Assembly (NCBI GenBank): GCA_911728435.2
Contig: OU452205.1
Location: 682,001-746,000 of the forward strand
Origin: Apoderus coryli
Taxonomy: Eukaryota; Arthropoda; Insecta; Coleoptera; Attelabidae
Direction of reading: 5' to 3'
DNA: 64,000 nt
Within the stretch, counting starts at the first letter, position 1. The number at the start of each line of letters is the position of its first letter. Under the pieces are notes generated by a model. It was not told the origin of the DNA. It ran no database searches and saw only the letters and a program-made list of their open reading frames with translations. This document shows positions 5,697-59,395 of the stretch, in pieces. The translations under genes were made by a program, and so were the position numbers.

Positions 5697-7062
5697 AACA
5701 AAAGTTGAAGGGGTTTCTGTAACTAAAGAATACTACGCTTCAATTTTAGAATAGTTAAAAAGAGGAAAATGGACGAAAGGTATCAAATTGAGTTTCGATA
5801 TTGTTATATAGTCTGTATCGTGGTAAATTTCTATAGAAGCTAGAAGTTTAAAAACTATTTTAATCCTACTGGTATACTATGTATAACTACTGACAAAAAT
5901 ATAAAAGACATGTTAGATATATATCTTTGATGCCGAAGTATATTACCGCATAATATATTGTAGCATTTACTTGCCAGATTATTTTGGCATAAGATTAGAT
6001 CTCAAATGTCGTCGACCGACATTTTTTTTCACAAAATTTTCATTGCTGTAACCTTATAAATAAATACGTTTACTAATATTTTATCTAAAAATATTTCTTA
6101 CAAAACGAGCAACTATTTAACGTTGTTTGGATGTTTAAAATTTTACATTAATCATACAATCATAAATACGAACTTTATTCCAAATATGATTGAAATATCA
6201 ACTAAAATAACCCCAAAATAAAATGTCAACGAATATAAGACCAATAATTAACTACCAGCAGATCCTTAAGCTCCTGTAGCTTAGCTTAGCTTTTTCAGGT
6301 TTCATTCAAGCCAGTTTCGCTGATGATTAATTGCAGTGGGACGGTTGGTGGAAAGAACTGGTAACCTCAACATAGGGGTCCACATGACACTTTCATAAAC
6401 TTCATTGCTTAATATTTTATTTTATATCTTAACAAAAAAGTACTGCGTACTAGTAAGTTCCGTTCATATTATGATTTATGGTTTACCTTTAATTACCAAC
6501 TAGGTATTTGTTATTTAGTATTTTACAACTAATTAAAGTTCGCATAGGTAGGTATATACGTAGTTTGACTATAAATTCTGCCATGTTTATTATCCGACTA
6601 ACGCGTATGGTTATCTGCATCAGATTGTTTATGGTTTATGTCAATAGAAAACATACACCTTTGGCGCGGTGCGGCCAGACATATATCGTTATAACATAAA
6701 CAATATCGACGAACCTTGGAAGCAACAGGAAAAAATCATACTACGGTTTTATAGTTATAGTCTGGAATCTAGTGGTTGGTATTTGCATTTTGCGTGACAC
6801 GTTGGCGGATATGCAAAGCAAAAAAAAAAAAGATGGTTAGTTTAGTGATATTACAGATAGATATACCTACCTATGACTAAGAGTGTATAAATATACAAGG
6901 TGTAACTAAACTGATGGTCAAAAATGAAACCATGTATAGGTATTGTTGGGAGTCAAAATAAGGGCAATTCTTCATATAATTTTTCTACTACGGGCCATAG
7001 TTTTTTTTAAACAAAGCGTCAAAGTTTACAGAAAAATTCACATCTTCTAGAAGTATACAATG
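5697..7062. other. Non-coding stretch
   Basis: No gene recognised. A TACAAGGTGTAAC terminus-like string is near 6894, preceding the fold-back element at 7063. Confidence 0.4.
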
Positions 7063-7380
7063 TTATTAAAAATGTTATTTTTGGTATACCCTGTATAGTA
7101 ATCGTAGATTTCGTACTCGAAATTGTAGTTTTGACACAAGCAGACGTTTTTATCAAGAATGACTTTTTCTTCTAAATCTACACATAAAAAAGTTTTTGCT
7201 TTTCCAAACTCTATACGTGGACACATAGGATAGAGTTTGGAGGAAGAAAAACTTTTTTATTTGTAGATTTAGAAGAAAAAGTCATTCTTTATAAAAACGT
7301 CTGCTTGTGTCAAAACTACAAATTCAAATACCAAATTTACGATTACTATACAGGGTATATCAAAAATAATATTTTTAATG
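7063..7380. repeat. Fold-back (long-TIR) non-autonomous element
   Basis: Imperfect palindrome of about 318 bp with its centre near 7221. Left arm strings such as CACAAGCAGACGTTTTTAT and GACTTTTTCTTCTAAAT reappear as reverse complements in the right arm. The sequence TATACCCTGTATAG on the left faces CTATACAGGGTATA on the right. There is no reading frame, so this fits a MITE-like deletion derivative of a TA-targeting transposon. Confidence 0.75.
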
Positions 7381-7534
7381 ATTTTGATTTGCTTGTTTTT
7401 TTAATTTTATTATTTTAATAGTAGCTATGAAATTAACCACTTTGAGAAAAAAATTTATTAGTGTTTTTTGCACAATTGGTGTAATAAATCACGGTTTTGA
7501 AAATATTTTCATAAAATTAAAAAAAAAAACAAAA

Positions 7535-7692
7535 AAATCAAAATCATTATAAAAATGTTATTTTTGATATACCCTGTATAGTAATCGTAAATTTCGTACT
7601 CGAAATTGTAGTTTTGACACAAGCAGACGTTTTTATAAAGAATGACTTTTTCTTCTAAATCGACAAATAAAAAAGTTTTTCCTCTACCAAAC
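7535..7692 (+). repeat. Partial second copy of the 7.1-kb fold-back
   Basis: Repeats the left arm of the 7063-7380 element (GATATACCCTGTATAG, then ACAAGCAGACGTTTTTATAA) almost exactly and then ends. Only one arm is present. Confidence 0.75.
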
Positions 7693-21358: not shown

Positions 21359-22045
21359 ACGTCAAAGCTAGCATGAGAATGCAAAGAGACCCTAAAGCAA
21401 CTGGCAGCTCAGGGGAAAAAGATTACTCTAACATGTGTGCCAGGACATGAAGGCATAGAGGGGAACGAAGCGGCGGACCAACTTGCAAAAGAGGGTGCAA
21501 ACGCTCCGTTCTGCGGCCCGGAACCCATCTTTGGCCTTCCAAAAAGCCACATGAAGGAAGAACTTCGGAGATGGGAAAAGGAACAACTTAAGTCCTACTG
21601 GAGAAACACTCCAGGCCTAAGACAATCGAAAAGGTTTACCAAACCTTCAGAGGCCAACGCAGGGAAGCTTATCCAACTGGAGAAAAGCGACCTGAGGCGA
21701 ATTACAGGCCTTTTTACGGGACACCACCCAGTGAAGTACCATCTCAAAAAGATGGGCCTAACCGAGGACGACACTTGTCGGTTTTGCGAAGGCGCAACAG
21801 AGACAACAGAACACGTGCTCTGCGAATGCATGGCACTTTTCTGCAAAAGGCTAAAACACCTTGGATGGGTGACCCTAACACCCGACGAGGCAAGGAATTT
21901 AGCCCCCAGAGAAATCATCAACTTTATGAAAGTGTGGGACAGCTGGGGAATTCATAGAAGAAGAAAGATCTTCTGCAGGTCGAAGTGAGGGGAGGCCAAA
22001 CCGCCTAATCGACTCCGATAAAACAATCTACAACCCTAGTAAACA
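21359..22045 (+). pseudogene. I/LOA-like LINE copy 1: RNase H and 3' end
   Basis: 5'-truncated copy of the family seen complete at its 3' end at 25.2-27.2 kb. It begins inside the RNase H domain (PGHEGIEGNEAADQLAKEG, keeping the last catalytic aspartate) and runs through the C-terminal tail with CRFCEGATETTEHVLCEC, a CCHC-like cluster, to the stop at 21988. The 3' UTR ends near CGACTCCGATAAAACAATC. The reading frame from 21437 is intact. The 5' border at GACGTCAAAGCTAGCATG abuts the hAT remnant. Confidence 0.85.
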
Positions 22046-25207: not shown

Positions 25208-27150
25208 TTGTAGATTGTTTTTCGGAGTCGTTTAGGCGGTTTGGCCTCCCCTCACTTCGACCTGCAGAAGATCTTTTGTGAATGACTCTAATCTATGAAT
25301 TACCCAGCTGTCCCACACTTTTCATAAAGTTGATGATTTCTCTGGGGGCTAAATTCCTGGCTTCGTCGGGTGTTAGGGTCACCCCTCCAAGGTGTTTTAG
25401 CCTTTTGCAGAAAAGTGCCATGCATTCACAGAGCACGTGTTTTGTTGTATCTGTTGCGTCTTCGCAAAACCGACAAGTGTCGTCCTCGGTTAGGCCCATC
25501 TTTTTGAGATGGTACTTCAATGGGTGGTGTCCCATAAAAAGGCCTGTAATTCGCCTTAGGTCGCTTCTCTCCAGTTGGATAAGCTTCCGTGCGTTAACCT
25601 CTGAAGGTTTGATAAACCTTTTTGATTGCCTTAGGCCTGGAGTGTTTCTCCAGTAGGACTTAAGTTGTTCCTTTTCCCATCTCCGAAGTTCTTCCTTCAT
25701 ATGGCTTTTTGTAAGGCCAAAGATGGGTTCCGGGCCGCAGAACGGAGCGTTTGCGCCCTCTTTTGCAAGTTGGTTCGCCGCTTCGTTCCCCTCTATGCCT
25801 TCATGTCCTGGCACCCATGTCAGAGTAATCTTTTTCCCCTGAGCTGCCAGTTGCTTTAGGGTCTGTTTGCATTCCCATGCTAGCTTTGACGTGAAGGTAT
25901 AAGACCTCAGTGCTTTTAACGCAGCTTGACTGTCTGACATAATATTAATCTGCCGTTCCGGGATGGCTCTCTGCAGACATTCTTGAGCACAACGATTAAT
26001 AGCGTTGATCTCTGCTTGGAATATAGTAGGACTTTTCCCCTGCAATTGGGCCATGCCTGTGTTCCCTTCTATTCCTTTTGAACCGTCCGTATACCAGACG
26101 GATGTGTTTTCTGGGAATCGTGGTTCCCCATTTAGCCAATTTTGACGTTCTGCAATGACCACTTCAAATGAAATTTCAAAATCATGTTTGCGTGGCAAAG
26201 CGTCCGACGGTTTTCTTCCTGAATCCAAAGGTATTAGATTCAGGATTCCCATGTGTCCCTCTAGATCGTCAGATTTGTATTCCATTACCTGTGCCAGTTT
26301 CAGAGCGCTAATTGCTGCCTCTTTTTTGACTAGGACAGGCAAAGGTATTAGATGCAGCAACGTTTCCATCGCTGCTGTGGGGCAAGTTCGCATTGCCCGT
26401 GTTATTCCTAAACATGCAAGCCGTTGCAACTTTTGAAGACGGCATTGTGTATGCTTAATATTAACTTTTAGCCACCATACTAATGAGGCGTATGTAACCA
26501 TGGGTTTGATAACTGTTTGGTACACCCAGTATGTGAGCTTTGGCTTTAGCCCCCAAGTCCTACCGAGTAGCCTGTGACACGTCCATATGGCCGCTGTGGC
26601 TTTCGATATGGTTTTCTCTATATGCTGATTCCAGATTAGTCGTTTATCCAGGATTACTCCCAGGTATTTGACTTTATCCAAAAGGCAAATTTGCTCACCG
26701 CTGAGAGTGGGGTTAATAATGTCCACCTTTCGCCGGCGTAGCTTTGCAGAGTAAAGCCTGCCCTATCCATTTTTGAAATGAGATGATCCAGCACTATTGA
26801 CCATAGAAGAGGAGACAATACACCGCCTTGTGGGCATCCCCTAGCCACTGTCACTGTTACAGACACTTCTCCTATTTCAGCCGTAATGACACGGTCATTC
26901 AAAATTGCCTGAATCCATTTCACCAGTGAGGAGTCGACACTCCTCTCTTCTAGTGCTCTACTGATGGATTCATGTGAGGTATTGTCAAAAGCACCCTCTA
27001 TATCAATAAAGGCACATAAGGATACTTCTTTTGCCTTAAATGACTTCTCGATGTCTTTTACTAAGCTGTGCAGAGCATTAATCGTAGATTTTTCCGCTTG
27101 GTAGGCGAATTGCCTTTTGTGAAGCGGTTTCCTATTTAAAGTTTCGCCCT
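25208..27150 (-). pseudogene. I/LOA-like LINE copy 2: RT (deleted) plus RNase H
   Basis: The longest copy of this family. Read on the minus strand it holds RT motif A (CAFIDIEGAFDNTS, near 27020), motif B (RGCPQGGVLSPLLW, near 26820), then QSYA at about 26728 joined directly to RRRKVDIINP. The catalytic YADD and roughly the following 60-70 residues are deleted. After the thumb (KYLGVILDKRL) come the RNase H motifs WYTDGS, AEINAINRC, SDSQAALKAL and PGHEGIEGNEAAN, where the final catalytic D has become N, and the CRFCEDATDTTKHVLCEC cluster. The 477-codon frame 25293-26726 is open. The 5' end is truncated near 27150. The 3' end matches copy 1. It would be dead for both polymerase and RNase H. 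Confidence 0.88.
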
Positions 27151-52394: not shown

Positions 52395-53447
52395 TTGCTG
52401 GCCTTTGATAGGGTCAAGCACGACGAAATGATTAGAATTCTGCAGCTGGTGGGAATCGATGATAAGGACCTGCGAATCATTGCGAATCTTTACTGGCATC
52501 AAAGTGCAAACATTCGACTGGGACGGAACACATCAGAAGAAGTGGAAATACGACGTGGAGTAAGGCAAGGGTGTATCTTGTCTCCTTTATTATTTAATTT
52601 ATACTCGGAATATATCTTCAGAGAAGCCTTGGACAATGTGGGGGGTGGTATAAAAATAAATGGAATAAACATCAATAACTTGAGATACGCGGACGACACG
52701 GTGCTAATTGCTACTAGTCAAGAAGAACTACAAATACTTGTAAACAGAGTGACCGAATCATGTAACAAGTATGGTCTGAAACTCAATACTTCAAAAACCA
52801 AATTTATGGTTGTCAGCAAAACACCAATACCAACAATACAAATCAGAGCATACGGGATACAGCTAGAAAAGGTTAACATCACATATTTGGGCGCCAATGT
52901 CAATGACAACTGGGACATGAGCAAAGAAATAAAGATCCGTATCGAAAAAGCTAGAACCGCCTTCTATAGATTAAAAAGAATTATCTGCAACAAAGGAACC
53001 ACTTTAAAATTAAAAATTAGATTAACACGTTGCTACATATTCTCCACATTACTCTAGGGAGCAGAGAGTTGGACGCTGACCGACACATTATTGAAGAAGA
53101 TGGAGGCTTTTGAAATGTGGGTCTACAGAAGAATTCTCCGAATAAGCTGGATGGACCGAATAAGTAATGAGATAGTCATACAACGAATGAAGAAAAGCAC
53201 AGAAATAATTAAAACAATAAAAAGCCGAAAACTCGAATATTTCGGCCACGTGATGAGGCACCCAGGAAAATATCATCTCCTTCATTTAGTGATGCAGGGT
53301 AAGATTGCCGGAAATAGAGGTCCAGGACGAAGAAGAAAATCTTGGCTCCGAAATCTTCGAGATTGGTATCGCAAAACATCCGCCGAACTTTTCCGAGCTG
53401 CGATAAACAAAGTTATTATAGCCAATATGATTGCCAACGTTCGATAA
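52395..53447 (+). pseudogene. RTE-clade LINE polymerase, 5'-truncated, one nonsense codon
   Basis: Begins inside motif A (AFDRVKHDEM), so the endonuclease and fingers are missing. Motif B is RRGVRQGCILSPLLFNLY (near 52550) and motif C is LRYADDTVLIATS (near 52680, YADD intact). The C-terminal region has ITYLGANVNDN, ESWTLTDTLLKKMEAFEMW, RLEYFGHVMRHPGKYH-like strings, GNRGPGRRRKSWLRNL and AAINKVIIANMIANVR, typical of RTE elements. The only lesion in 350 codons is a TAG at 53056-53058, where relatives have a tyrosine codon. The 3' UTR is very short and ends in AGAAGAAGAAG at 53464-53475, like the relic at 41398. Confidence 0.88.
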
Positions 53448-53479
53448 TCGGAGATGGCACCAGAAGAAGAAGAAGGCAC

Positions 53480-54126
53480 TGTAGTAAATAAAGAGTTGAA
53501 TTACCACCATACGTTGCGTACTAACTCACACGCCAGACCTATAATCCCGTTACATTTGGCAAGTTTCTCGGCATTTCGATGTTTTTTATTTCCTCAAGTA
53601 ACCCTTTAATGTACCTTCTAGCTATTTGGTGCAGAGCACCACTACCCAAGAGGTGGCAGAGGCAGCCGAAAAACTCATGCTGACCATCAGGTGTTCCTAT
53701 GACTGGAAAATACTACGCTTCAATTTTAGGACAGTTAAAGAAACAAATCAAAGAAATATCCCTATTTAATAGTATCATCGTCTTTTAAGAGTGTATTTAG
53801 CCTACACAGTGTAGGCTACTCTGCTTAGGCTTAGATGCAGGATCGGGTGTTGTGGGTGATCCTTTCGATTCTGTTGCTTATTTACCCTTTCTCCACAATT
53901 TTTATCACCACAGGAGACCATTTATCCTTCCGCTAGCATGGTCTCCTGCTAGCGTTTTGTGTTTACACTATTTCCGTTATTTTTTTTATTTTTATTTCTA
54001 TTTTTACTGCTGGTGTTACCTATACATTAAATTTGTTCGGCCTCTGTATGGTGAGATATGCATTACTATGTAGATGGTACGGTTTACATGTTGTGCTTAA
54101 ATGCAGGCCGATTTGAACATGGGCAA
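53480..54126. other. Non-coding stretch with one perfect hairpin
   Basis: No gene recognised. CAGGAGACCAT (53911-53921) and ATGGTCTCCTG (53938-53948) form a perfect 11-bp stem. Confidence 0.5.
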
Positions 54127-54186
54127 AGACTATGGTACTCTGACGAGTTCATAATAAGAGCGAAACGAGTTCGTCAGTATCTGTCT
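54127..54186 (+). ncRNA. Type I hammerhead ribozyme, complete
   Basis: All parts are present in order. Stem I 5' strand AGAC-UAU-GGUACU (54127-54139); core CUGACGA (54140-54146), fitting CUGANGA; stem II GUUC/GAGC (54147-54150 with 54158-54161) closed by AUAAUAA; GAAA (54162-54165); stem III ACGA/UCGU with a GU loop (54165-54174); cleavage-site C at 54175, giving GUC; stem I 3' strand AGUAUC-U-GUCU (54176-54186). Stem I pairs as 6 bp plus 4 bp around an internal loop, the place of loop-loop contacts in natural hammerheads. Self-cleavage is predicted between 54175 and 54176. A related tail occurs at 49.6 kb. Confidence 0.85.
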
Positions 54187-54240
54187 CCCTCGGTCTGGTT
54201 CTACTGAATATGACTGAGGCCCTGCTCAATTCAACAAAAT
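54187..54240 (+). mobile_element. Downstream tail of the hammerhead element
   Basis: CGGTCTGGTTCTACTGAATA, then GACTGAGGCCCTGCTCAATT and CAACAAAATCCCTTGTG follow the ribozyme. The same series, slightly changed, forms the palindrome at 49599-49720, so this is part of a dispersed repeat. It is non-coding. Confidence 0.6.
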
Positions 54241-55424
54241 CCCTTGTGAAATTATTTTTCTTTTTGTTGTATATTATGCCATTGAAGTTATTTCTTTTTG
54301 CAATGGAATACACATTTGTTCGTTTATTATTTGTTATTTATTGACACTTAATGTAACGTTCTATTTGTACTGTATATTTATTTGAAAAGTTTAATATTAT
54401 TAACCCATATTATACACATATAAAACTGTTACTTATTTCATTTTAATGATAGTTGTTGGTCGAAGAATGCTAGACATTTCCATATACGTAAGGAGCGAAT
54501 GCAGTGATTATTATAATTTATATATTATAATTTTCATCTGATCCTTTACCTTTTAAATGTTAAATTAAATACCTAGTTGATTAGTTATATTATTAGCCAT
54601 TTAGACAGAAATTATGAGCGTGCTAAAGAAATTATTTGATTTTTAATTGATACCTAAACAGTGCATTCATTTTACGCCTTTTTGTGAAAATATCCTTCAC
54701 CTTTTAAAGATGTAGTTTGGAGACAACATATTTAAAAGTTCGCTCGCAGCTTATAAGGCTTTCTATTTTATAGTACAAAGGTGGGACAAAAATAAATGTT
54801 CAGGACATTGAGTTACATAGTTAAGTTCTCGATCTCGACTAGGAAAACATCATTCAGCGTTAAGATTTTCTTCTTGTTGTTGGTTTTCAAATAATATCTA
54901 CCATTTTTTTATTCTCTTTTCTTGAATCTTATTGCTACATTTTATTTGTGGAATTCATGTAGGTAAACCTGCCTAAATTAAAAAAATTGTTTTGTTAAAA
55001 TTTCATTCATCTGTCAAATTTGATATTTCATTTATTATTTCATTTTTAATTTAAATCAATCAGAATTTTGTTCAATTCTTCATCTGTTTCCATATATTTT
55101 TTTTGATTTTCTTGTATTGATTGGAATAAGGTCATCGATATTTTTCTCAATTTCCAACGCAGAAGCATTCCCAAATCGAAACATTATTTACAAAGCTCAA
55201 ATTATTAGTGATGTTTCACTTGAAATACGCGGACTTCCAACCATACACATTTCTATCTGACGCACTTCAGTAGATAGGCTATACGGGTTCGGCCTCATTT
55301 CTTCGCTAAGGTCCAATATGGTCAGAATGGTTCCCTTTCAAGGTCACTTGATGGCCTCGCGAGATTATAAACCATGTAAATGACATAAACATGATGTTAT
55401 TGCCATAAGAAATGAGGCCGAAGT
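54241..55424. other. Non-coding stretch
   Basis: I see no gene here. GTTCGGCCTCATTTCTTCGC near 55288 is inverted near 55408 (GAAATGAGGCCGAA), close to the start of the next LINE. Confidence 0.4.
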
Positions 55425-56851
55425 GGTATATCATGTCTACTGACATCAGTATGGCATACTTGTTTAATCATGTCAAGCGGCTCATCACGCCTATTCAGCA
55501 CGGATTTTTTCCTGGACGATCCACTGCTACTAATCTCGTTATTTTGAGTCAGTTTTTGGCAGAAAGCTTGGATAGCGGGGGTCAGGTTGACGTTATTTAT
55601 ACGGATTTTACCAAAGCCTTTGACAGTCTTGACCACGGAATTCTGCTGCAAAAGCTTTCGGAATTTGGTTTATCTGTGGATCTTTTAAAATGTCTGTCTA
55701 CTTATCTCCATGAACGTAAATTGTATGTGGAGTACCGTGGTTTCAAGTCCGGTATTATCCGTGCAACATCTGGAGTGCCGCAGGGTTCTGTGTTGGGTCC
55801 CCTCTTATTTATGTGTTTTATTAATGACATTGTTAATGGCGTGAAATGTCGCTCCCTACTCTTTGCTGATGATTTTAAGGTTTATTCACTGATTACCTCA
55901 GCTTCTGACTGTCTTCAATTGCAGAATGATCTGAATGTCCTGCTTGACTGGTGCATTTAAAACAGGCTTGCCCTTAATTTGGATAAGTGTTGTTCTGTAA
56001 CTTTGACTCGTAAGGTAAATCCAATAAAATTTGTGTATAACATTGACTCTGTTCCACTTAAAATATGGGATGAGGTTAAGGATCTGGGGGTGCTCTTTGA
56101 CGCTAAACTTAGTTTTGTGGGGCATGTGATTGATGTGGTTTCGTCTTCCTATAAGAGTCTGGGTTTTGTTATGAGAAATACAAAGCATTTTGTGTCACCT
56201 AAAACTCTTATTTTACTGTATTATTCCTTCGTTAGATCGAAATTGGAATATGCGTCTGTTGTGTGGAGTCCTGGTTATGCATGCACTCGAATAGCTTAGA
56301 GAGGATTCAGCGAAGATTTGTGAAATACTTGTGGTTTAAGTGTGACGGAGTGTATCCAACCATGGGATTTCCCCATGATGAACTTCTGGGTCGTTTTAAT
56401 TTTGTACCTCTTGATAAGCGTAGAGAATATGCCTCACTCCTGTTCCTATTCAAGATCGTGAATGGCATCATTGACTCTCCGGACCTACTTTCAATGGTAC
56501 CTTTTCATGCTCCACATACGAGAAGGCGTAATTATGGTTCTAGCTTTTAATTGCCTACCGCACGTACCAACTTGTTGCTTTTTTCGCCATTGATTGAGAT
56601 GTGTTCTGTTTGTGACTCGGTGAGTACCGATATTGATGTGTTTTTTAATACCATATCTTATATTAAAAAAGTGTTTTTTAGATAAATATTTGTTGTTAAA
56701 CCATTCTGACTATTTTTTGCGATTGTAATATTTGTATTATTTATAATTTTGAAACGTGTGTTTATGTTAATTTTATCGTTTTGTAATGTACCTGCCCTGT
56801 AATTAGATGTGTTTCTGTCTGGGTAGATGTAATTTAAATAAATAAATAAAG
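55425..56851 (+). pseudogene. LINE polymerase to 3' end, inserted in a Tc1 gene (CR1/Jockey-like)
   Basis: Nearly full polymerase without endonuclease: [16 protein letters not shown], motif [15 protein letters not shown] near 55590, motif [15 protein letters not shown] near 55770, motif [12 protein letters not shown] near 55860, LALNLDKCCSVTLTRK, DLGVLFDAKLSF and LEYASVVWSPGY. The lesions are TAA at 55958-55960, a frameshift near 56290 and TAA at 56548-56550. Past the last of these the frame continues (LPTARTNLLLF...) to 56684. The 3' end is an (AAAT)n run at 56829-56851, which directly abuts Tc1 transposase sequence. Closest in the window to 2258-3058. Confidence 0.85.
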
Positions 56852-56975
56852 ACTGTATGGTGGGCACTCTAGCTTCGCAATCCCAACATCCTCAATGTAC
56901 GTACTGGTTTACGATTCTTGCTGCATGAACACGGGCATTATCGTGCATTAGCACAAAGTTATCATATCCAATAAA

Positions 56976-57184
56976 CTGACAATCGTTTTACCACTTCACC
57001 AAAACACTTCTTTTAAATCTCGACGCGCGTTTCGCTAACAATGTTAGCATCCTCAGGAGAGAATTAAAAGTTTTAACTAACATTGTTAGCGAAACGCGCG
57101 TCGAGATTTAAAAGAAGTGTTTTGGTGAAGTGGTAAAACGATTGTCAGTTTAGTGTTCTACGCCAAAGGTTCTACTCATCGATT
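56976..57184 (-). mobile_element. Hammerhead-bearing fold-back element with 12-bp target duplication
   Basis: A 209-bp insertion in the Tc1 transposase gene, flanked by the direct repeat ATATCCAATAAA (56964-56975 and 57185-57196). Removing the insert and one repeat restores the transposase frame. It is built of perfect 75-bp inverted arms (56973-57047 and 57077-57151, the outer three bases overlapping the duplication), a 29-bp spacer, and a 33-bp unpaired tail (57152-57184). It has no reading frame. A hammerhead is encoded on the minus strand. The long duplication is unlike the TA of mariners and suggests target-primed insertion. Confidence 0.8.
57010..57070 (-). ncRNA. Type I hammerhead ribozyme, complete, in a fold-back
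   Basis: On the minus strand: stem I 5' strand CUUUUAA-UUC-UCUC (57070-57057); core CUGAGGA (57056-57050), fitting CUGANGA; stem II GCUAAC/GUUAGC with an AUU loop; GAAA (57033-57030); stem III ACG/CGU around a CG loop; cleavage-site C at 57022, giving GUC; stem I 3' strand GAGA-UU-U-AAAAG (57021-57010). Stem I forms 4 bp next to the core and 7 bp outside it, with an internal loop and one bulge. The right arm on the plus strand repeats stem II, GAAAC and stem III, but has no CUGANGA core, so only one strand encodes a complete ribozyme. Confidence 0.82.
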
Positions 57185-57756
57185 ATATCCAATAAAGCCG
57201 GCATATGCTATAACATGTTCTGCAAGGATGTTGCGTATGTACCAGTTAGCATTCATCCTTAAATTCACTTCAATGAGTTTCGTGTGATTCTCCCAACTAA
57301 TACCAGCCCATAACATAATGGAACCACCACCAAAGATTATGTGCAAGATTACATTCTGCGAAACGTTCTCCTGACCTTCTGTATACTCGACTACGTCCGT
57401 AGGCTTCCATAAATGCATTCTTGCTTCGTCTGTCAAAAGAATTTTTTCCCATTGATGTTCATTCCAGTCAGGATGTGCTCTTGCAAATTGTAACCGTCCT
57501 ATTTTATGGCGTGGAAGAAGCCGAGAAACTTTAGTAGACGTCTTGGCTTTAAATCGACCCCTTAGGTCTCCTTATTATTGTTTTTGGTGGAAACATTCAC
57601 TTGCTTTGCATTTAGTAATTGTTTTTTACAGTGTACGATTTCGCAAAGATTGTATCCTTAAATATTGCTGATCTCTTGGCTATTTTTGCCCTACAACCCA
57701 CGAATCCTTATTCAAGTCTATAGTCATGAAGGGCACGAAGTGCTCCACATGCATAG

Positions 57757-57787
57757 ATACAACGTTTCGGCGAACGTCGTCGCCTTT
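57757..57787 (-). ncRNA. Degenerate hammerhead ribozyme relic
   Basis: Minus strand, with the 5' stem extending to about 57795: AUAC (stem I), CUGAAAA in place of CUGANGA (G8 to A), stem II AGGCG...CGCC, GAAAC, minimal ACGU stem III, U, then GUAU (stem I). Both stems close, but the core substitution should abolish cleavage. An 18-nt string 54 bp away recurs inverted beside the relic at 17.0 kb. Confidence 0.5.
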
Positions 57788-57799
57788 TTCAGGTATTTT

Positions 57800-59395
57800 T
57801 TGTAATGACTCCGGCGTATAGAGTCATTATTTTATTAATTTATTCTGCTTTACAAAATCGTTTCCTTCATTTGCTTAGGAATTGTAATAAAATTCCCCTT
57901 ATTTGTCTTGGAACAAATAATAATAATCGCTCAGGGCCAGGGTGGATGATTTATAATATCGAGCACCACTTTCTGCAGCCAGCGCAGCACGGCTCTGTGC
58001 GTTTAATAAAATTACTTTCTTTTCAATTTAACCTCGTAGTAAATCAAATTTCCTCTCATTGAGACACAAATCGATTCCACGTCTAACCATTTATAAAACG
58101 ACGTAATAAATTTATTATATTGAGGTCACTTTGAATATATTTCCGCACAATTAAGCAGGACGATCCATACTGCAAAATAACCTCGGAATACGAAATGGGA
58201 TCCTTAATCAAGTTTTGTATGTTTTCTTCCAGACGTGATATGAAATTGTAGTTCAATTTAGATCGATCTAGCGTTATAGAGTAGTATTCCCGGAAATGTT
58301 CAGTGTTTGATGATTTCTACAAATAATGGAAAACTTTTAGAGAAAAAGTGTTGTTCTTATTTTTCAAATCGTTAACTTTTATAGTAGTCTCGTTTCCAGC
58401 AACATCAAAATCATTACTGCGAAGCAAATTGCGCTTTTGGTTTGTCGAGAAACTTTGTTCACAATAACTCCTAAACTAAAGCAATTAGATGGACATGAAA
58501 TACTGCGTTTATTACATTTGTTCACATGTTAATGGTATCACGTGTTAGGGTAGAATCTACAAGGTTATAAATAAATCTGTTCAATTAAAAGACTGGGCCG
58601 TAATCAAGAAATTTCGCCCTGTATCGCGAAAACTAAAAACTTTATCCTTAGGTGTACCCAAAAATAGCGACTACACAGAAAAAAAATATATTGCATATCC
58701 AATTACAGACTTATTTTTGAATTCTTTTCTTTTGAGCTAAATACAACTATTATCTAAGCATTTTCTCATCATTAAGATAATGATTGATTTGATTTTGTGG
58801 CAATAATAGGCAAATTATTGAAATCTAAATAAACGTACATTTACTTGGAAAATACAACTGGTTGCGTTAATGCTAAGGGGAATATTTACTTGGAAAATAC
58901 AACTGGTTGCGTTAATGCTAAGGGGAATATTTCAATCAACGGTAGGTTATCAATATATTTTTATTAGATCCTAATATTATTGCAATCATATATGTCGCTT
59001 ATTAAATATCATAAAGAGAATTGAAACAATATTAAATGCCCTTTTTAAACGAATAAAAAGATATTATTTTCTCAAAACTCTTCTATTTGTTTTGCTCAGT
59101 TTATATTTCCGGCAATAATATGAGTTATTAAGTTCATGTATAAGGAATTCATTGAATTATAGTGTACCTCGAATTCAATGATTCTTATTGTTGGTGTGGA
59201 CCTTATTGCCATCAATTTCAAGCTGTATCTCGGCAAGCGCGTGGTGGTAGGGATATATCATAGTGCCTCGGTTTTGTACTTCCCCTGTCGGCCGGGCTGA
59301 TCTCAGATCTCACTACTTAACGCTAAAGTTGCTATAGCCTGTCTTCGGGCAGTGTTGTTTTGTTACTGTTGTTTGAGGGTACCTATTTATACATA
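57800..59395. other. Non-coding stretch with a 45-bp duplication
   Basis: No gene recognised. The 45-bp unit at 58841-58885 (TTACTTGGAAAATACAACTG ... AGGGGAATAT) is repeated at 58886-58930 without a spacer and almost without change. Confidence 0.6.

Follow-up and report, generated by a model that had tools for sequence, protein, structure and literature searches.

A 209-bp gene-less insert in an Apoderus coryli transposase gene is best explained as two head-to-head truncated pseudo-LTRs of Penelope type

Results

Anatomy of a minimal insertion of very probable PLE origin

We found that a 209-bp insert in a transposase gene of the beetle Apoderus coryli is best explained as two head-to-head truncated pseudo-LTRs (pLTRs) of a Penelope-like element (PLE), one of them bearing the PLE tail, with no gene. 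The insert lies in a stretch of 64,000 nucleotides (contig OU452205.1 of assembly GCA_911728435.2, positions 682,001 to 746,000 of the forward strand), hereafter the window, and all coordinates are counted from the first base of that stretch. Based on its anatomy and on published comparisons, it is very probably a minimal, coding-less PLE-derived insertion, by whatever route it arose. We also lean, with some reserve, towards the full account in which such a PLE-derived insertion was made by double-ended target-primed reverse transcription. The features of the insert and of its host gene are as follows.

56850..56963, minus strand: downstream part of the transposase gene, reaching the (TAAA)n end of another retroelement
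56964..56975, no strand: left copy of the 12-bp target-site duplication, ATATCCAATAAA
56976..57047, sense strand minus: tail-less arm of the longer copy, containing hammerhead stem II, GAAA, the predicted cleavage site and all that follows it up to the proximal end
57010..57070, minus strand: predicted type I hammerhead; stem I of 4 bp, an internal loop and 7 bp, stem II of 6 bp, stem III of 3 bp
57048..57076, minus strand: spacer, which is the 5' part of the longer copy, with the outer strand of hammerhead stem I, the core CTGAGGA, the ATG (57050-57048) and TTAAAAGTTTTAA
57077..57148, sense strand plus: arm of the shorter copy, beginning at hammerhead stem II, without the CTGANGA strand
57149..57184, plus strand: 36-bp unpaired tail
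57185..57196, no strand: right copy of the target-site duplication
57197..57571, minus strand: upstream part of the interrupted Tc1/mariner-type transposase fragment, host of the insertion

The insert (56976-57184) is flanked on both sides by a 12-bp direct repeat, and the two flanking copies are the only plus-strand occurrences of ATATCCAATAAA in the 64-kb window, from which its reverse complement is absent. A flanking match of 12 bp has a chance of 1.8e-7 at one fixed offset and of 7.8e-5 over 441 offset pairs. The exact inverted repeat measures 76 bp (56972-57047 and 57077-57152) and reaches 79 bp if one mismatch is allowed; its outer 4 bp (TAAA) belong to the left target copy, so that the insert's own perfect arms are 72 bp long. 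Between the arms lies a 29-bp spacer, and beyond the right arm is a tail without a pairing partner, 36 bp long as measured from the 72-bp arm. The initial annotation had described perfect 75-bp arms and a 33-bp unpaired tail: both the perfection of the arms and the tail hold, while the arms are 72 or 76 bp long depending only on how the shared bases are counted, and the tail is 33 bp when three more bases are assigned to the arm. The end positions are uncertain by at most 4 nt at the proximal end (the shared TAAA) and at most 2 nt at the distal end (a possible shared AT). The two copies are unequal, one being 29 bp shorter than the other, and a 13-bp palindrome, TTAAAAGTTTTAA, sits at their inverted junction (57064-57076).

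The insert encodes no protein. A BLAST search of the insert against the 64-kb window gave no match above background other than the insert and its inverted arm (next match E 0.44), and neither a full-length source element nor an enzyme gene nor a second copy of the insert was seen within the window. The perfect arms had earlier been taken to imply recent mobility; their identity stands, and the age drawn from it needs care, because, had one kind of RNA served as template for both arms during insertion, 72-bp arm identity would bound the age of this single insertion only weakly.

The joined flanks restore a transposase reading frame

Joining the flanks with one copy of the duplication restored a minus-strand frame (...AYAGFIGYDNFVLMHDNARVHAARIVNQYVH) that matches the Sleeping Beauty transposase (E 5.2e-12, residues 14-150). 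The Tc1-type identity of the host gene rests on this match, and the joined piece has no Pfam family at E 0.01. Beyond a stop there is what we take to be a transposase-like continuation in a different frame, and the host reading is bounded by a (TAAA)4 repeat at 56835-56850; the host is apparently a decaying transposon. Since the joined flanks restore the transposase frame, the insertion is a discrete one and its empty site can be placed precisely. The coordinates and the restored frame thus confirm the earlier description of a 209-bp unit with a 12-bp duplication within a Tc1 gene, together with the discreteness that had been read from the interrupted frame.

Other mobile sequences were observed next to the host gene and elsewhere in the window. 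An RVT_1 reverse-transcriptase ORF (55409-55960) lies in a stretch (55409-56850) whose end is a (TAAA)4 repeat and which adjoins the downstream part of the same transposase, so the gene has probably been hit at least twice. At the start of the window, a transposon-like unit (20-2112) has 376-bp inverted repeats (20-395 and 1737-2112, 98% identical). These enclose a 372-aa frame without interruption (547-1665), which matches DUF4817 and, below the cutoff, HTH_Tnp_Tc3_2; the unit is apparently a Tc1/mariner-type element of young age. At 7058-7692, inverted and direct repeats are nested within one another; their arms measure 157 bp (90%) and 143 bp (94%), there are three related copies, and they perhaps represent a small element duplicated in inverted orientation. 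Finally, one retroelement ORF region is present twice in opposite orientation, at 21387-22008 and, some 4 kb away, at 25232-25864; the two copies share eight exact stretches of 39-71 bp each.

A predicted hammerhead in one of the two copies

Our own strict descriptor (core, three stems and a UH cleavage site) predicted two hammerheads in the window, one with its core (CTGAGGA) starting at 57056 on the minus strand, within the insert, and one with its core at 54140 on the plus strand. By comparison, only 2 of 300 first-order Markov windows of equal length contained a strict hammerhead, and the predicted hammerhead exceeds chance expectation. The cut in the insert is predicted between 57022 and 57021 on the minus strand. 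The CTGANGA strand is present in just one of the two copies, which leaves one complete hammerhead. The strict descriptor thereby bears out the complete minus-strand hammerhead noted in the initial annotation, at an Rfam score below gathering: the type I model gave 18.3 bits versus a gathering threshold of 34 (E 0.21 in an 801-base search), and a scan of the whole window at the gathering threshold returned no family. PLE hammerheads are described as minimal type I variants (PMC7761336), so the low score is not surprising.

Between A9 and stem II the motif carries an additional U. In the minimum-energy fold of the longer copy, stems I and II are present and the full hammerhead is absent; the outer 7-bp part of stem I is also paired in that fold, and the register beside the core was read by eye. 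The longer copy alone folds no better than shuffles (74 of 200 as good). The minus-strand RNA of nearly the whole unit (208 of 209 nt, 57184-56977) is predicted to fold at -132.4 kcal/mol, and none of 200 shuffles was as good. As the duplex of a whole-hairpin transcript would bury the ribozyme, it probably does nothing in this copy. The best of 12 lax Rfam matches at 56700-57500, all below gathering, were to the microRNA models MIR4208, MIR8675 and MIR395, which we attributed to the perfect hairpin and discounted.

Long inverted arms and a target duplication are also what an ordinary MITE or fold-back DNA transposon would show, in which case the hammerhead motif would be present by chance. We regard this as barely credible given the scarcity of strict hammerheads in the random windows and a duplication of 12 bp rather than TA. 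We rejected a MITE or TIR DNA transposon on these grounds and because one end has 36 unpaired bases beyond its arm, which leaves termini that do not form inverted repeats. The unpaired end and the 12-bp duplication agree with the earlier statement that the insert is not a standard DNA transposon.

The second hammerhead (54135-54180, plus strand; core CTGACGA at 54140) has stems I, II and III of 6, 4 and 4 bp and a predicted cut after 54175, and it scored 19.5 bits in Rfam, below the gathering threshold of 34. It lies outside any recognised element and may belong to a retrozyme or to the 5' end of a retroelement. A repeated unit containing it was found neither at 53450-55450 nor by TRF at 53000-58000.

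Landmark distances as in a lizard PLE, arrangement as in a rotifer PLE

The positions of the start codon, the cut and the ends of the insert were compared with those of PAc (Poseidon) of Anolis carolinensis. In PAc the ORF begins at stem II, with C3 and G8 preceding the start codon; the hammerhead cut falls 26 bp past the ATG; reverse transcription most often starts 111-118 bp into the ORF, in a stem loop; and the 30-40-bp tail is the interval separating two start sites (PMC11167929). The ATG of the insert likewise overlaps the hammerhead, beginning at A9 of the core, and the predicted cut lies 26 nt past the end of this ATG. Its tail-bearing (distal) end lies 111 nt from the A of the ATG, measured at the equivalent position in the other copy, and 82 nt from the predicted cut, in keeping with the PAc start from about 111 nt. 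The tail-less (proximal) end lies 75 nt from the A of the ATG, so the two ends differ by 36 nt, which is the length of the tail and falls within the range of 30-40 in PAc. The 75-nt end itself has no PAc figure to be compared with, as the second PAc start is given without a number in the parts of the source drawn on here (PMC11167929). These distances, like the anatomy, the duplication, the empty site and the hammerhead core, are shown by the sequence itself.

The insert also departs from PAc in several respects. No protein is known for the insert; the frame from its ATG stops at codon 21, and because this stop lies in the part common to both arms, either a defective template was copied or the true start is elsewhere. 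The PAc enzyme prefers A+T-rich DNA and the cut motif ATT (PMC11167929), and ATT is at neither junction of the insert. A stem-loop was not found at the start sites of the insert, where the fold of the RNA was equalled by 115 of 200 shuffles and so does not stand out.

The arrangement of the insert resembles that of rotifer Penelope elements, whose pLTRs are described as inverted with an optional 31-bp tail on one, whose shorter inverted pLTR lacks 37 bp, and which have palindromes at the inverted junctions and duplications of 8, 9 and 10 bp, with none at some insertions (PMC3846280). Like Pen2a_Av of Adineta vaga, the insert has inverted pLTRs with a tail on one (36 bp versus 31 bp), one copy that is shorter (by 29 bp versus 37 bp), a palindrome at the inverted junction, and a short duplication that, at 12 bp, is slightly longer than those of the rotifer. 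Unlike in Pen2a_Av, no ORF lies between the pLTRs of the insert, and each copy is only about 100-110 bp long. The end of the Pen2a pLTR lies 12 codons into the ORF, or 22 codons with the tail (PMC3846280), which amounts to about 36 and 66 nt versus 75 and 111 nt in the insert. Since these distances differ, only the Anolis element agrees closely with the insert in distance, while the rotifer arrangement still matches.

Inverted pLTRs and short 3' extensions are among the PLE traits listed in a guide to transposon curation (PMC8969392). The insert combines inverted, 5'-truncated pLTRs (72-bp arms, one copy 29 bp longer), a tail in the 30-40-bp range on one end (36 bp, ending 111 nt from the ATG), a short duplication at A+T-rich DNA (the 12-bp ATATCCAATAAA) and, within the pLTR, a minimal type I hammerhead whose self-cleavage is predicted. 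An ORF with a telomerase-like reverse transcriptase and a GIY-YIG endonuclease is absent from the insert, and none of the 58 listed ORFs of the window (at least 90 aa) has a GIY-YIG match in Pfam at E 0.001. Such a missing ORF is expected of a truncated copy, and we therefore filed the insert as a PLE-derived insertion and not as a PLE. No other element class is known to us to combine these features. The hammerhead, tail and arm patterns had no match in the viral contigs and prokaryote genomes that were scanned, a result that carries little weight for an animal-type sequence.

Another source of a small hammerhead-bearing sequence would be an animal retrozyme, a non-autonomous retroelement spread via circular RNA. 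Animal retrozymes are described as tandem repeats with one hammerhead per unit, with RNAs of about 170-400 nt and with duplications that, when present, exceed 4 bp (PMC7229834). The insert is compatible with those sizes and, like the non-LTR retrozymes of animals, is small and coding-less with a type I hammerhead; unlike them, it consists of inverted rather than tandem copies with one complete hammerhead between them, and it has a tail of the PLE type (PMC7229834). No tandem array including the insert's hammerhead was found at 53000-58000. We rejected a retrozyme on these grounds and judge this origin very improbable.

A proposed double-ended priming event

With PLE origin as the preferred reading, we infer the enzyme, the RNA template, the order of steps and the joining from the structure of the two junctions. 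A PLE reverse transcriptase/endonuclease would have cut both strands of the A+T-rich site in the Tc1 gene at points 12 bp from each other and left 3' ends, and each of these would have primed cDNA synthesis at an internal position of a PLE RNA. The plus-strand 3' end would have primed at the proximal start, 75 nt past the ATG, and the minus-strand 3' end at the distal start, 111 nt past it. Both cDNAs would have been short, ending in or just beyond the hammerhead; their ends would then have been joined head to head beside the small palindrome, and gap filling would have produced the 12-bp duplication. The joining could have proceeded by end joining, by a template switch or with the help of the palindrome.

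The junctions are consistent with these steps. On the plus strand ...CCAATAAA is followed by CTGACAATCG..., and on the minus strand ...TTGGATAT is followed by AATCGATGAG..., such that the 3' end of each duplicated 12-mer joins sequence running back from the would-be PLE start site. Each 3' end retains the duplicated 12 bp, which would be expected if 3' overhangs had primed synthesis. The proximal start may have used a 4-base pairing of target TAAA with RNA UUUA, and the distal start shares at most 2 bases with the target. For PAc, both target strands are reported to be cleaved and extended in vitro, with a start site apparently alike on either strand (PMC11167929). That the insert is a frozen double-ended priming event recording both PLE internal starts, one per target strand and chosen independently, is a proposition that we hold in even balance.

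The arms of a PLE-derived insert could instead have been made by one-strand self-priming at the palindrome, followed by a single insertion event. Self-priming on an antisense template is the route favoured for rotifer PLEs, in which palindromes likewise lie at inverted junctions (PMC3846280), and the 13-bp palindrome of the insert would suit it. However, self-priming by itself predicts equal ends, and those of the insert differ by 36 nt, a published tail size, although incomplete copying could also produce a difference; in addition, a spacer of 29 nt does not amount to a tight hairpin loop. We consider this route unlikely, with some chance of being correct.

The absence of any encoded protein, with the ATG frame closed by a stop, would also suit a stable non-autonomous fold-back family, in which the 209-bp hairpin is itself transcribed and re-inserted in trans by a PLE enzyme, a reading near to that of the initial annotation. 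Duplication-flanked non-coding sequences captured between pLTRs are reported in a rotifer (PMC3846280). On the other hand, the 64-kb window holds no other copy, the unit's own transcript would fold at -132 kcal/mol and bury the hammerhead, and a family of this kind is not needed to explain the asymmetry of the single tail. This possibility seems quite improbable to us.

Discussion

The initial annotation had reasoned that an insert encoding nothing must use another machinery, and had named Penelope as the place to look. Retroelement machinery is indeed the best explanation for this coding-less insert, and its anatomy, together with the hammerhead, the tail and the start distances, fits a PLE. 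The further suggestion of an undescribed non-autonomous retroelement was not supported, as inverted pLTRs, an optional tail and duplications have already been described for Penelope (PMC3846280), and a hammerhead, a 30-40-bp tail and internal starts for the Anolis PLE (PMC11167929). Truncated PLE insertions are likewise already known, among which this insert is unusually small and unusually informative on PLE integration. Insertion of an inverted pLTR pair alone is not described among the matches listed from the open literature, as judged by titles and the starts of abstracts, which is weak evidence of absence.

Published views differ on how PLEs build their inverted pseudo-LTRs. Self-priming on an antisense template is the favoured route in the 2013 study of rotifers (PMC3846280), and in the 2024 Anolis work both strands were cut and extended from internal starts in vitro, with later steps unvalidated (PMC11167929). 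The insert is short enough for both cDNA starts, the junction between them and the empty site to be read within 209 bp, and such copies would offer a direct genomic test between the two views. Short inverted hammerhead pairs with one 30-40-bp tail would provide a search signature for other genomes. If general, independent double-ended priming would account for the inverted arrangement of PLE pLTRs and for a tail confined to one end, with no need for self-priming or an antisense template.
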